Shown: piece after piece, positions 37,275-54,889 of the stretch | Layout of the letters: every line of letters begins with the position of its first letter | Numbering within the stretch: the stretch's first letter is position 1 | Origin: Pseudomonadota bacterium | Lineage (GTDB): Bacteria > Pseudomonadota > Alphaproteobacteria > GCA-2731375 | Direction of reading: 5' to 3' | Length of the DNA stretch: 54,999 bases | NCBI GenBank assembly: GCA_027623205.1 | Contig: JAQBYC010000002.1 | Location: 71,657 to 126,655 of the forward strand | Translations under genes and position numbers: made by a program | The notes under the pieces: generated by a model | Seen by the model: the letters and a program-made list of their open reading frames with translations, nothing else | Database searches by the model: none | Told to the model about the DNA's origin: nothing

Positions 37275-38156
37275 TCAGGACGACAACTGTTGGCTTAAAC
37301 GTTTGAGGATTTCGTCGAACTGATCCAGCGAGGTGAAGGTTATGCGAACTTCACCGCGCTCTCCCTGATGGCTGATTCTTACCGCCAGGCCTAGTTTTTC
37401 CGATAATTGTTTTTCCATGGCGCGGGTGTTTTCATCCCGCCCAGAGGCCGAGGGCGCCACTGCCGCCGTTGCTTTTTGCGGTTTTCTGACTAAAACCTCG
37501 GTCTGCCGTACATTCAGGCCTTTGCGCAGAACGGTTTGCGCCAGGGCTACCGGGTCAGCAGCCGCTAACAGGGCCCGGCCATGGCCGGCGGACAGACTGC
37601 CGTCCTGCAGCAAGGCTTTTACCGCATCGGGCAAACCTAACAGGCGCAAAAGATTGGCCACATGACTGCGGCTCTTGCCAACGGTGCGGGCCAGGTCTTC
37701 CTGTGTATTGGCGAACTCGTCCATCAGGCGGCGGTAGCCTTCGGCCTCTTCCAGCGGGGTTAGATCCTGCCGCTGCACATTTTCGATCAGAGCCACTTCC
37801 AAGGTCTGATTATCGTCCAGCTCTTTGACAATAACCGGAACTTCATACAATTGCGCGGCTTGTGCGGCGCGCCAGCGGCGTTCACCGGCAACGATTTCAA
37901 AACTGCTGTTATCGTCACCCATACGGCGCACCAGGATCGGCATCAGAATGCCTTTTTCCCGGATTGATTCGGTCAGAGCCTGCAATTCTTCGGAATCGAA
38001 ATAATGCCGCGGCTGATAGCGGTTCGGCTTCAGGCTTTCGATGGGTACCGTCCGGCCTACCCGCAAGCGGTCCAACGCCGGCTGGTCATCGGGATCCTCC
38101 GCCAGCAGGGCCGAAAGGCCACGGCCAAGACCCTTGCGTGGTTGCTCCTCACTCAT
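37275..38156 (-). CDS. parB: Chromosome-partitioning protein ParB
   Basis: A 293-residue ParB. The N-terminal CTPase/ParB-Srx domain carries PIESLKPNRYQPRHYFDSE, the GERRWRAAQ box (91-99) and ENVQRQDLTPLEEA (125-138). The central helix-turn-helix (about 150-175, TQEDLARTVGKSRSHVANLL) reads parS sequences, and the C-terminal part forms the dimer. ParB loads at parS, spreads as a CTP-dependent clamp, and works with ParA to move the origin. Its ATG overlaps the parA stop codon (ATGA, 4 bases). Two perfect parS sites lie within 3.5 kb, near rsmG and mnmG. Confidence 0.97.
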   Translation of the reverse strand: MSEEQPRKGLGRGLSALLAEDPDDQPALDRLRVGRTVPIESLKPNRYQPRHYFDSEELQALTESIREKGILMPILVRRMGDDNSSFEIVAGERRWRAAQAAQLYEVPVIVKELDDNQTLEVALIENVQRQDLTPLEEAEGYRRLMDEFANTQEDLARTVGKSRSHVANLLRLLGLPDAVKALLQDGSLSAGHGRALLAAADPVALAQTVLRKGLNVRQTEVLVRKPQKATAAVAPSASGRDENTRAMEKQLSEKLGLAVRISHQGERGEVRITFTSLDQFDEILKRLSQQLSS

Positions 38157-39022
38157 GCTGCCGCTGCTAGGCGCTCGCGCCGCAGCATTTCGCTGGCCAA
38201 CTGCATATAGGCCAGACTGCCTGCGCATTTGTGATCGTACAACAAGGCGGGTTTGCCATGGGACGGCGCCTCAGACACGCGAACGTTGCGTGGGATAATA
38301 GTTTTATAAACCTTGTCGCCCAGAAAACCACGGACATCCTGGGCCACTTGATCAGAGAGATTATTGCGCTTGTCATACATGGTCAAGACGACACCCAGAA
38401 TTTCCAATTCCGCGTTGAAACTCGTGCGGATCCGATCGATGGTTTTGATCAGCATGGATAGGCCTTCCAAAGCGAAGAACTCGCATTGCAGGGGCACCAC
38501 CACCGACTTTGCCGCGACCAAGGCATTGACCGTCAACAAATTCAGGGATGGCGGACTGTCGATCAAGACGTAATCCAGATTCTCCTCTCCGGCGGCCAGA
38601 GCCTCGCGGAGACGATAGGCCCGGCGCGGCATATCAATCAATTCCAGTTCGGCCCCGGTCAGATCAACGGTCGAGGGAATGATACTCAAGCCGGGAACGG
38701 AAGTTGCTACCCGGGCCTGTGCCGCGGTCGCCTCTCCCATCAGGACATCGTACGAGCTGACGTGCCGGTTGGCGCGATCGATGCCCAGGCCGGTACTGGC
38801 ATTGCCCTGGGGGTCGAGGTCCACCAGGAGCACCCGACGGCCGATCGCGGCCAGGCCGGTTCCTAGATTTATGGCCGTGGTGGTTTTGCCCACGCCGCCC
38901 TTTTGATTGGCGATGGCGATGATATGCGGTGGCCGTTTGGTTCCGCCCTCGCGCGCCGCTTCAGCAGCAACCGGGACAGCCATAGGGGCGCCTTGATTCT
39001 TGGATCGTGGAAAATCAGACAT
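38153..39022 (-). CDS. parA: Chromosome-partitioning ATPase ParA
   Basis: A 289-residue deviant-Walker ParA/Soj ATPase. The P-loop KGGVGKTTTAINLG (residues 41-54) has the signature Lys before GGVGKT. Further conserved segments are VLLVDLDPQGNASTGLG, DYVLIDSPPSLNLLTVNAL and VLTMYDKRNNLSDQVAQDVR. ATP-bound ParA on the nucleoid is depleted by ParB-parS to drive origin segregation. A 30-residue N-terminal tail precedes the ATPase fold. The start at 39022 has GGAG about seven bases upstream. It overlaps the end of rsmG by eight bases. The rsmG-parA-parB order is standard. Confidence 0.97.
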   Translation of the reverse strand: MSDFPRSKNQGAPMAVPVAAEAAREGGTKRPPHIIAIANQKGGVGKTTTAINLGTGLAAIGRRVLLVDLDPQGNASTGLGIDRANRHVSSYDVLMGEATAAQARVATSVPGLSIIPSTVDLTGAELELIDMPRRAYRLREALAAGEENLDYVLIDSPPSLNLLTVNALVAAKSVVVPLQCEFFALEGLSMLIKTIDRIRTSFNAELEILGVVLTMYDKRNNLSDQVAQDVRGFLGDKVYKTIIPRNVRVSEAPSHGKPALLYDHKCAGSLAYMQLASEMLRRERLAAAA

Positions 39023-39641
39023 GGCTTATCTCCGTTAGTTGCAAAATTGAGCCCGATTCATCCGTGACACTTGGGAAGCGTCGGGCTGTCATTTTCCAAT
39101 ATTTTGTGGCGTCGGTCAATTCGGCATCTATATCTTGTCCTTTCAGCAGGAGTATCTGTCCACCAGGGGCCAGATGCCCAGATGCCAGAAGCAGCAGCCG
39201 CGGCAACGGCGCCAGAGCCCGGGCGGAAATGGTTTGAGCGGCCTGAGGGGGTAACGCCTCGATTCTTTCATTATGCACAGTCACTTCGACGCCGGTGACC
39301 CGCGCGGCTTCACGCAGGAAGGTGCATTTTCGACCATCGCTTTCGACCAGATGAACATCCCTGACTCCGGCGATTGCCAAAACCAGGCCGGGAAAGCCAG
39401 CCCCGCTGCCCAAGTCCAACCAGGGTGTTACCACCCCATTGATCTCATCAAGTTTACAAAATTTGCAGAGTTGGATCGAATCGAGCATATGGCGCCGCCA
39501 AAGATCATCCAGACTCCGTCGGCTAACCAAATTTATCCGCTGGTTCCATTTACGCAACAGAGCGGCGTAGATTTCAAGACGCCCCAATGTTTCACGTGAA
39601 ACATTGGCGGCCTTGCTAAATTCCGCTGGGGCCATTGCCAT
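39015..39641 (-). CDS. rsmG: 16S rRNA (guanine527-N7)-methyltransferase RsmG
   Basis: A 208-residue SAM-dependent methyltransferase that makes m7G527 in 16S rRNA. The SAM-binding motif is WLDLGSGAGFPGLVLAI, the N-terminal part reads YAALLRKWNQRINLVSRRSL, and RHMLDSIQL carries the conserved His-Asp-Ser. The start at 39641 has AGGGG four bases upstream; a frame to 39707 overlaps mnmG and is rejected. The gene is 31 bases after mnmG. A perfect parS site (39588-39603) lies within its first 20 codons and is translated as NVSRET, so the peptide sequence and the binding site are both constrained. Confidence 0.95.
   Translation of the reverse strand: MAMAPAEFSKAANVSRETLGRLEIYAALLRKWNQRINLVSRRSLDDLWRRHMLDSIQLCKFCKLDEINGVVTPWLDLGSGAGFPGLVLAIAGVRDVHLVESDGRKCTFLREAARVTGVEVTVHNERIEALPPQAAQTISARALAPLPRLLLLASGHLAPGGQILLLKGQDIDAELTDATKYWKMTARRFPSVTDESGSILQLTEISHV
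39588..39603. other. parS: parS centromere-like site 1 (inside rsmG)
   Basis: TGTTTCACGTGAAACA is the consensus 16-bp parS palindrome with no mismatch. The palindrome extends to 24 bp (39584-39607). It lies inside the 5' coding part of rsmG, 0.6 kb from the start of parA, where ParB can load. Confidence 0.95.
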
Positions 39642-41597: not shown

Positions 41598-41613
41598 TGT
41601 TTCACGTGAAACA
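41598..41613. other. parS: parS centromere-like site 2 (mnmE-mnmG gap)
   Basis: A second perfect TGTTTCACGTGAAACA lies in the 96-base gap between mnmE and mnmG, just upstream of mnmG. It is 2.0 kb from site 1. The flanking sequence differs from site 1, so this is not a recent duplication. Confidence 0.95.
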
Positions 41614-51565: not shown

Positions 51566-52612
51566 TCAGCCACGCAGCATTTCAGCCAGACGACCAACAT
51601 TTTCCGGTGGCGTTTCAGGTACGATGCCATGGCCCAGATTGAAAATAAAGGGTCCATGGCCCAGGGTATCCAGAATTCGTTTCACTTCGGTTTCCATAGC
51701 CGCACCGCCAATGACCAGAAGCCGGGGATCCAGATTACCCTGCAAGGTCACTTTGCCTTGTGCGTTCGATCCCTGCAATTCCGCGGCGGCCCAGTCCAAT
51801 GGCACGGTCCAATCCAGACTGACCCCATTGACCCCCGCCACCTGGGCAAAAGCCTTATACCCAGCCCCGGCGCCACGAGGAAAACCGATAATCGGGAGTT
51901 CGGGATAGCGCTGCCGTAATAACACGGCAATCTGTTGTACCGGCTCGATACACCACCGCTGAAAAGCGGTTTCCGATAACGCCCCGGCCCAAGTATCAAA
52001 CAATTGTACCGCCTCAGCACCAGCATCCACCTGCTTGCCAAGATATTCCACCGTCGCGGCGACCAGCAATTGGATCAGTTGGCCAAAGCCGTCCGGATCG
52101 GCATAAGCCCATTGTTTCACCATCGCATGATCACGGCTGCCCTTGCCTTCCACCATATAAGTCGCCACGGTCCAGGGTGCGCCGGCAAAACCGATCAGCG
52201 CCACATCATTGGGCAACGCCGCTGCCAACCGCCCAACAGTCTCGTACACCGGTGCCATCCGCTGGTGCAAATTGTCCATGCGTAATGCCGCCAATTCCGT
52301 GACATTACGGATTGGCTCCAGGATCGGCCCTTCACCTTCGCGATAATCCAGGGCCTGACCTAATCCATGGGGGATCAACAAAATATCGGCAAACAGTATG
52401 GCCGCATCCATGCCGAACCGCCGGATCGGCTGCAGGGTAACTTCGGTAGCTAGGTCAGGGTTGAAACAAAGGTCCAGAAAGCTCCCCGCCTGTTCCCGCG
52501 TTGCCCGGTATTCCGGTAGATAACGGCCCGCCTGCCGCATCAGCCAGAACGGCGGCCGGGTTAGCGTTTCGCCCCGCAAGGCACGAATAAGCAATTTTTC
52601 GTCTGTCTGCAT
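51566..52612 (-). CDS. hemE: Uroporphyrinogen decarboxylase
   Basis: A 348-residue enzyme that removes four carboxyl groups from uroporphyrinogen III. The N-terminal signature is [18 protein letters not shown] (23-40), the [15 protein letters not shown] segment carries the catalytic Asp, and [19 protein letters not shown] is the second signature. It is cytoplasmic. The gene begins directly next to the candidate oriC; hemE as the gene flanking the origin is the arrangement known in Caulobacter and Rickettsia. Its promoter must lie in the 52.6-53.0 kb region. Confidence 0.97.
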
Positions 52613-53037
52613 TATTCGTGTCCTATATCTGTAGACTCAATTTCGTTTTCCGTCTTTTTGCATATAAATTTTTTTAAAGATAGATAGTGGAAGATAGTGA
52701 ATCCCTGTGAAAGTTGGGGATTAAGGCCGATCCCCCGATTCGTCCCGAAAATAGTCCCCAGACCAGACATCTAGTTTACCGATGTGGATAAATCGGTAAA
52801 TCTGGTTAGAATTAAGCGGATCAACATCGGGATACTCTGGATAAGAAATTTACTGTTTGAAAATTCACGGCATATCGATTCGAAGGTGGGATGTTATTCA
52901 TAGCTTAAAAAGTAGGGGTACGGATAACCCCTCAAGGTGTGCAGTTTTCGCTGTCAGTCCGGAAAACACGGTTTATCCCCGTCACTAACAATTTTTGTCA
53001 TCCAGATTTTTCATCTGTAGAAGGCCGCTAAACCGCA
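52613..53037. other. oriC: Candidate chromosomal replication origin (oriC)
   Basis: A 425-base non-coding region between divergent hemE and the PPRP gene, visibly AT-rich against the surroundings. It contains a perfect DnaA box TGTGGATAA (52783-52791), a one-mismatch box TCTGGATAA (52836-52844) and weaker ones at 52894-52902, 52919-52927 and 52973-52981. An A/T run at about 52655-52687 could be the unwinding element. In Caulobacter and Rickettsia the origin is known to lie between hemE and a homologue of this PPRP gene (RP001 type). Together with parAB and two parS sites 11-14 kb away, this supports an origin, but no function is tested. Confidence 0.8.
52775..52800. promoter_or_regulatory. 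Inverted repeat enclosing the best DnaA box
   Basis: TTTACCGAT (52775-52783) and ATCGGTAAA (52792-52800) are perfect 9-base inverted repeats that flank the eight bases GTGGATAA. The central DnaA box overlaps the last base of the left arm. The symmetry suggests either a cruciform or a binding site for a dimeric protein that would compete with DnaA. Confidence 0.55.
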
Positions 53038-53875: not shown

Positions 53876-54889
53876 CTAATCCTCTGGCAGCTCGGGCCAA
53901 TGAAAAGGGATTTCCGGTGCGGCTAATTCAAGCCGGGGAAGAACCGCTGCATCCTTGACGCGTAGCCAGGGTTTTAATAGATCCCGATCCCGGTGCTGCC
54001 GTTCGCCAGGTCGCGCCGCCGCCGTGCGCTCCAGGCGCAGACGGTACAACATTGGAAAGGCATCGTCGTTTGACCCCGAACCGCTTGATCCCGTCAAAGC
54101 ATAGTTGCTTAAGTCCTTGATCCCGGCCGCAATAGCGGCTTGTTGAAAGCGCTGCCGTGCCGAACCGTCGGGCTGGATCAGCAGATATTGTTCAACCAAG
54201 GGACCCTGATCCAGAATGGTCAAGCGACAATCTTCCTGCCCGGCGACAAAAACCATAAAACGCTGGCTATGGGCGGACAGCAACTGGGTTGCCATGGCAG
54301 CCGCACTTTTCCGCCCGGCGGCGTTGGCGGAAAAACCGAAATACTCGAAGAACTTCCCTTCCAGCGCCTCAACATAGTCTTCACCCCGTTCAAACAATCG
54401 CTGATCGATGTAGCCCAGTTGTTTCCCAAGCTCCCTAATTGCCGTATCGGTCAACCGCTCCAGTTTCACATGCATATGGCTAAGTATCATGCCATCGCCT
54501 GTCACGCTCTCCTGCGCCAATATTGCATAATCGAGGCCTAAGAGACGGCGCAATAATGCGTCGCAGCCGGGATCTTCCAGATGACAATGGCTTGCCTTGA
54601 AGTCCGAGAGGTCCAGATCCGGGGCCAGGCGCTGAATGTTGCGCCACGTCACGCGGTTTGAACTGCGGAGGCGAAAATGTTTTTTCAGCGGGCGGGGTAA
54701 AGTGCCATCGATCAGGAACATCAACACCGTATTCTGATGCCGATGCTCGATCCAGGCATTGCCAAGGCTGGGCAACAACTGATCCACGGAGACGAATGGA
54801 TATGGTTTCCCGTCGGATATAAAACGAAAGAAACTGTCGATTAGACTATGGCCCAGAAGTTGCGTGGTCAGCCGAGCCCGATTTATCAA
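53876..54889 (-). CDS. Uncharacterised protein next to the origin
   Basis: A 337-residue frame with no recognised family. The sequence starts at a TTG (54889); no ATG or GTG occurs within its first residues except a GTG in YPFVSVDQLLP, so the true start is uncertain and could be GTG (about residue 34). The frame is open 15 codons further upstream to a TAG. It has no signal peptide or long hydrophobic segment, and a mixed charged composition. MFLIDGTLPRPLKKHFRL and IHVKL-like MHVKLERLTDTAIRELG may be conserved, but I cannot name a domain. It converges with the PPRP gene, 19 bases apart. About 110 bases to the right window edge show nothing. Confidence 0.6.
   Translation of the reverse strand: MINRARLTTQLLGHSLIDSFFRFISDGKPYPFVSVDQLLPSLGNAWIEHRHQNTVLMFLIDGTLPRPLKKHFRLRSSNRVTWRNIQRLAPDLDLSDFKASHCHLEDPGCDALLRRLLGLDYAILAQESVTGDGMILSHMHVKLERLTDTAIRELGKQLGYIDQRLFERGEDYVEALEGKFFEYFGFSANAAGRKSAAAMATQLLSAHSQRFMVFVAGQEDCRLTILDQGPLVEQYLLIQPDGSARQRFQQAAIAAGIKDLSNYALTGSSGSGSNDDAFPMLYRLRLERTAAARPGERQHRDRDLLKPWLRVKDAAVLPRLELAAPEIPFHWPELPED

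Follow-up and report, generated by a model that had tools for sequence, protein, structure and literature searches.

The gap between hemE and the PPRP gene is very probably the chromosomal replication origin of a marine alphaproteobacterial genus

This study investigated whether the AT-rich gap between hemE and the adjoining PPRP gene constitutes the chromosomal replication origin (oriC) of an alphaproteobacterium, as a first-pass annotation had proposed from sequence alone. The window, the whole 54,999-bp stretch of DNA that was analyzed, is the terminal part of contig C74, which measures 126,655 bp, in an assembly of 5.0 Mb and 228 contigs, and the contig stops 1.96 kb to the right of the gap. 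The source is a marine alphaproteobacterium of a genus known here from metagenome assemblies only; its relatives with a PPRP 79-93% identical were environmental assemblies labelled Alphaproteobacteria or Rhodospirillaceae, which we take, judging from isolate names, to be mostly marine. Our analyses indicate with high confidence that the gap is oriC of the hemE/COG1806 type, on the combined grounds of synteny and gap size kept in many genera, ab initio enrichment of DnaA boxes, the densest box cluster on the contig, a skew minimum, nearby parS sites and an unwinding-type module. The locus is, on good support, a new example of an established origin type, that of Caulobacter, rather than a new kind of origin.

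The limits given for the gap were exact, and Pfam assigned the two flanking genes as named:

51566..52612, minus strand: hemE, uroporphyrinogen decarboxylase, flanking gene (PF01208, E 1.5e-118)
52613..53037: hemE/PPRP intergenic region, predicted oriC (flanks, 41% GC, densest DnaA-box cluster on contig C74)
53038..53856, plus strand: PPRP gene (Kinase-PPPase, DUF299/COG1806), flanking gene (PF03618, E 5.3e-95)

The 425-bp gap thus separates two divergent starts, that of hemE (52612, minus strand) and that of the PPRP gene (53038, plus strand). A GC scan against the window mean of 60% identified no 425-bp stretch of the window with a lower GC content, and the AT content of the gap also exceeded the genome average (41% vs. 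60% GC). The proven Caulobacter origin is located between hemE and the COG1806 gene, and that of Rickettsia has been placed there too (PMC1914354). The gap resembles Cori of Caulobacter crescentus (hemE/CC0001) in its flanking genes, AT-rich tract, DnaA sites of unequal strength and GANTC sites (PMC1914354, PMC3973325, PMC4468827). It shares its flanking genes with the Rickettsia prowazekii origin (hemE/RP001) as well, although the 384-bp Rickettsia gap is far AT-richer (82.6%; PMC1914354).

The divergent hemE/gap/PPRP junction was retained in most of the best 80 related loci, with gaps mostly of 340-600 bp. Four loci were left out of the statistics, namely L136, which had no hemE in reach, and L114, L134 and L149, which had gaps larger than 800 bp; these last three come from two Minwuia assemblies and another alphaproteobacterium, and their gap measured approximately 1.6 kb, not 0.4 kb. 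To the right of the gap, a congener carried, in order, PPRP, a protein without a Pfam match, maf, aroE, a coaE-like open reading frame, a dnaQ-like exonuclease gene and secB; from its reading frame, we take the frame between aroE and the dnaQ-like gene to be coaE. The window stops just beyond the second gene of this series. That gene, on the minus strand at 53876-54889 and adjoining PPRP, encodes a conserved protein of 337-360 aa without a Pfam match, and in the congener the same Pfam-less protein lies between PPRP and maf, within an otherwise old gene cluster.

We then analyzed the DnaA boxes of the gap. A search with TTATNCACA identified one perfect box, as annotated earlier, and two single-mismatch boxes (52836-52844 and 52894-52902) where the earlier reading had listed one. 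The chance expectation for perfect plus single-mismatch boxes was 20.8 per window. Since this amounts to approximately 0.16 per 425 bp, the three observed boxes are unlikely to have arisen by chance (Poisson P ~6e-4), and no 425-bp stretch elsewhere in the window exceeded three. In a Markov control matched to the composition of the gap, 0.41 sites of at least 9 bits were expected, compared with five observed, and none of 4000 samples reached five. The following sites were identified, with bits given by a position weight matrix (PWM):

52705..52713, minus strand: weak predicted DnaA box CTTTCACAG, second member of a tandem pair (aligned manually with TTATCCACAG, the box found ahead of the trio-like repeats in other genera)
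52715..52723, minus strand: predicted DnaA box TAATCCCCA (9.7 bits; GGGGATTA invariant in 11 congeners)
52752..52760, plus strand: weak predicted DnaA box TAGTCCCCA (8.4 bits)
52783..52791, minus strand: perfect DnaA box TTATCCACA (14.9 bits; congeners have TTATCCCCA at the same place)
52836..52844, minus strand: predicted DnaA box TTATCCAGA, single mismatch (12.1 bits)
52894..52902, plus strand: single-mismatch box TTATTCATA, not conserved (<5 bits in the clade PWM)
52973..52981, plus strand: predicted DnaA box TTATCCCCG near the PPRP end (12.8 bits; TTATCCCC invariant in 11 congeners)
52998..53006, plus strand: weak predicted DnaA box TCATCCAGA (9.6 bits)

Only one of these boxes is a perfect match of the E. 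coli type. The most conserved boxes, those of the TTATCCCC type, had been missed in the earlier list: TTATCCCCG at 52973-52981 and TAATCCCCA at 52715-52723 were both conserved more strongly in relatives than TTATTCATA. A word count without a prior motif across 77 gaps yielded the same type, with GGGGATAA/TTATCCCC the strongest word (present in 57 gaps, compared with 1.1 in shuffles) and GTGGATAA/TTATCCAC among the next strongest (37 gaps vs. 1.1 expected); the most enriched words common to these gaps were TTATCC[AC]C boxes. By description, not by sequence, this main box type is set apart from the G- and W-boxes of Caulobacter.

A weight matrix was fitted on 66 gaps of other genera (consensus TTATCC[AC]CA), in which it identified 7.5 sites per gap. 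When the 127-kb contig C74 was scanned, the gap was the densest 425-bp window at a threshold of at least 7 bits, and in a 359-kb congener contig the top window was the orthologous gap or overlapped it. On a contig of another genus (G013:C9), the maximum fell just upstream of PPRP, at a locus from which hemE is gone and alongside which an insertion element lies. This contig test is not wholly independent because the seed word was chosen after the count that included the 11 congeners. The element in G013 (L068:14790-17152) is an IS21-like istA/istB pair that occupies the position of hemE immediately next to the origin gap, and approximately 90 near-identical istB-like copies occur in that genome.

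The A/T cluster reported in the gap was real. The 33-mer TCTTTTTGCATATAAATTTTTTTAAAGATAGAT, at 52653-52685 and with 15% GC, had the lowest GC content of any in the entire window, and it adjoins a run of triplets:

52653..52685: AT-rich tract, probable duplex-unwinding element (15% GC; TTTT-AAA and ATAGATAG near invariant in 11 congeners)
52679..52699, minus strand: DnaA-trio-like repeats CACTATCTTCCACTATCTATC, adjoining the AT tract (in-frame CNA triplet runs)

Read on the minus strand from the box side, a box and a weak box come first, followed by a short spacer, the triplet repeats and the AT tract. Other genera keep this order, with TTATCCACAG as the weak box and repeats resembling CCACCACCACAGCTACC, and a published arrangement runs likewise from box through spacer and trio to unwinding region (PMC8287927). 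Alignment of 11 congeners revealed an invariant core comprising the TTTT-AAA AT tract, ATAGATAGT, TGAATC...GTG, GGGGATTA, GATTC, GGATAA, a TTCGATTCG-like block and TTATCCCC near PPRP. In-frame C-N-A runs at the trio position had a mean length of 2.53, compared with 1.26 in shuffles, and a run of at least three was found in 45% of gaps with a lead box, compared with 0.2% elsewhere in gaps; the window's own CNA run of two is short compared with most congeners. On this sequence comparison, the box pair, trio-like repeats and AT tract are a conserved unwinding-type module.

The module was compared with the basal unwinding system (BUS) of Bacillus subtilis, which consists of tandem DnaA boxes and DnaA-trios. 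The published trio criterion is (.A.){3,} (PMC8287927); our test took at least three consecutive trios no more than 16 bp from a DnaA box and scored CNA units in place of the exact pattern. The gap and the BUS share one order, in which a box pair and a short spacer are followed by triplet repeats that include CTA units (3'-GAT-5' when read on the opposite strand) and then by an AT tract. They differ in that the gap triplets are degenerate (C-N-A), and the central A is often missing on the bound strand.

These features suggest how initiation may proceed. DnaA, encoded elsewhere in the genome, would bind the TTATCC[AC]C boxes, and a DnaA filament would grow from the tandem weak pair at 52705-52723 toward hemE over the trio-like repeats at 52679-52699, presumably with that polarity. 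The filament would open the AT tract at 52653-52685, where the helicase would be loaded, and the sites at 52783, 52836 and 52973 may help nucleate or regulate DnaA assembly. Replication would proceed in both directions from the gap. An origin fixed for a marine alphaproteobacterial genus would define its replication start and replichore orientation, and its known position would allow growth rates to be estimated from read depth. The 77 compared gaps further yield a map, open to testing, of the boxes, trio-like repeats and methylation sites of the whole group.

Three GANTC sites of the gap were invariant in the genus according to the congener alignment:

52699..52703: GANTC (GAATC), between the box pair and the trio-like repeats
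52737..52741: GANTC (GATTC)
52877..52881: GANTC (GATTC), within TCGATTCG

The 77 gaps contained 232 GANTC sites, compared with 55 expected at the flank rate and 125 in shuffles. The host genome encodes GcrA and a 373-aa open frame with a RAMA domain, a domain found among the control genomes in Caulobacter only; the frame is consistent with CcrM. The Caulobacter origin also holds several GANTC sites (PMC3973325). GANTC methylation may have a role at the origin. Unlike in Caulobacter crescentus, CtrA sites (TTAA-N7-TTAA) were not conserved in the window's genus. The gap had one single-mismatch site at a position that is not kept, and most congeners had at most one, at differing places. CtrA control of the origin thus found no support. 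A bolder proposal, that origins of this group work with a diverged DnaA-trio array (C-N-A) by a weak box pair and that GANTC methylation by a CcrM-like enzyme, inside the unwinding module, is the cell-cycle switch replacing CtrA, is possible but rather doubtful. No IHF site (WATCAN5WTR) was found in the window's gap, and such sites were sporadic in congeners; because the IHF site is an accessory feature, diverged or absent in the Anaplasma and Neorickettsia origins (PMC1914354), its lack does not exclude membership in the hemE/COG1806 type.

The GC-skew switch that had been suggested as a check was evaluated contig by contig because the assembly is in 228 contigs, and on these contigs it favored the gap. 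The results revealed that the cumulative skew minimum of C74 is located at 124307, 38 bp inside the gap (which starts at C74:124269), and that of the congener contig at 148192, 1.6 kb from its own gap. When arms of 5 kb were used, the skew step at the congener gap ranked 4th of 3494 positions; arms of 10 kb placed it 7th of 3394. Skew was higher on the PPRP side than on the left side in 45 of the 49 related loci with enough flank; in G013, the skew was weak and the locus is disrupted by the insertion element. The claim of leftward gene orientation also held, with hemE, hemH, hemJ/UPF0093, SDR and rho just left of the gap pointing away from it. Gene direction contributes to skew. Third-position skew by strand revealed G excess on the leading strand, in genes leading away from the gap, up to 20 kb and little beyond. 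Skew in the genus is weak past approximately 20 kb, and because the leading-strand G excess fades at that distance, skew alone is weak evidence here.

The parABS locus that had been noted in the window was also recovered, with parA and parB assigned by Pfam:

37275..38228, minus strand: parB (PF02195, PF17762, PF23552)
38153..39022, minus strand: parA (PF13614)
39588..39603: parS TGTTTCACGTGAAACA, perfect motif match
41598..41613: parS TGTTTCACGTGAAACA, perfect motif match

The gap is separated from the two parS sites by 11.2 and 13.2 kb, and the distances are equal in the congener. ParB bound to this pair, 11-13 kb to the left, would segregate sister origins.

The divergent flanking genes also fit a different interpretation, in which the gap is only a hemE/PPRP promoter region where DnaA would regulate transcription, with the origin located elsewhere. 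Promoter clusters of DnaA boxes do exist in the host genome, for example upstream of the class II ribonucleotide reductase gene. However, that cluster has three sites of at least 9 bits, compared with five in the gap, the highest of 25 genome loci with a perfect box, and the AT tract, the order of box pair and trio-like repeats, the skew minimum and the proximity of parS are unexpected for a promoter. We consider this interpretation very unlikely, and promoter and origin roles of the gap may coexist.

Even less probable is an origin adjoining dnaA, as in many bacteria. A different contig (C199) carries the gene, full-length and in one copy, with its GGRDHTTVMHA signature intact, and several moderate box matches occur approximately 2 kb upstream of dnaA in the congener. 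These matches are mostly in coding sequence, however, and are lost in the host genome despite 87% identical DNA, and the host rpsT-dnaA gap contains one weak match only. An origin beside dnaA was rejected, given that no conserved box cluster lies upstream of the gene. That the gap belongs to a secondary replicon or plasmid and not to the main chromosome, a membership that a fragmented genome could hide, has a negligible probability, in view of the core genes hemE, hemH, rho and parAB on the contig by Pfam, the mnmG, mnmE and rsmG that we take from their reading frames to be there also, and a RepC search of three genomes of the genus that found none.

Box pairs that might compete with the hemE/PPRP gap as oriC were located on C30, C72, C151 and C177 and were rejected, each having at most three sites of at least 9 bits. 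The C30 pair (L179:2130-2308) lies upstream of the class II ribonucleotide reductase gene, its two perfect DnaA boxes being separated by 168 bp, and was recognizable in all four congeners examined, with one copy mismatched in L190; its placement suggests DnaA control of nucleotide supply. The C72 pair (L180:4492-4510) lies upstream of lexA, in the gap that separates this gene from a moeA-like one; its two perfect boxes stand face to face, one base apart.
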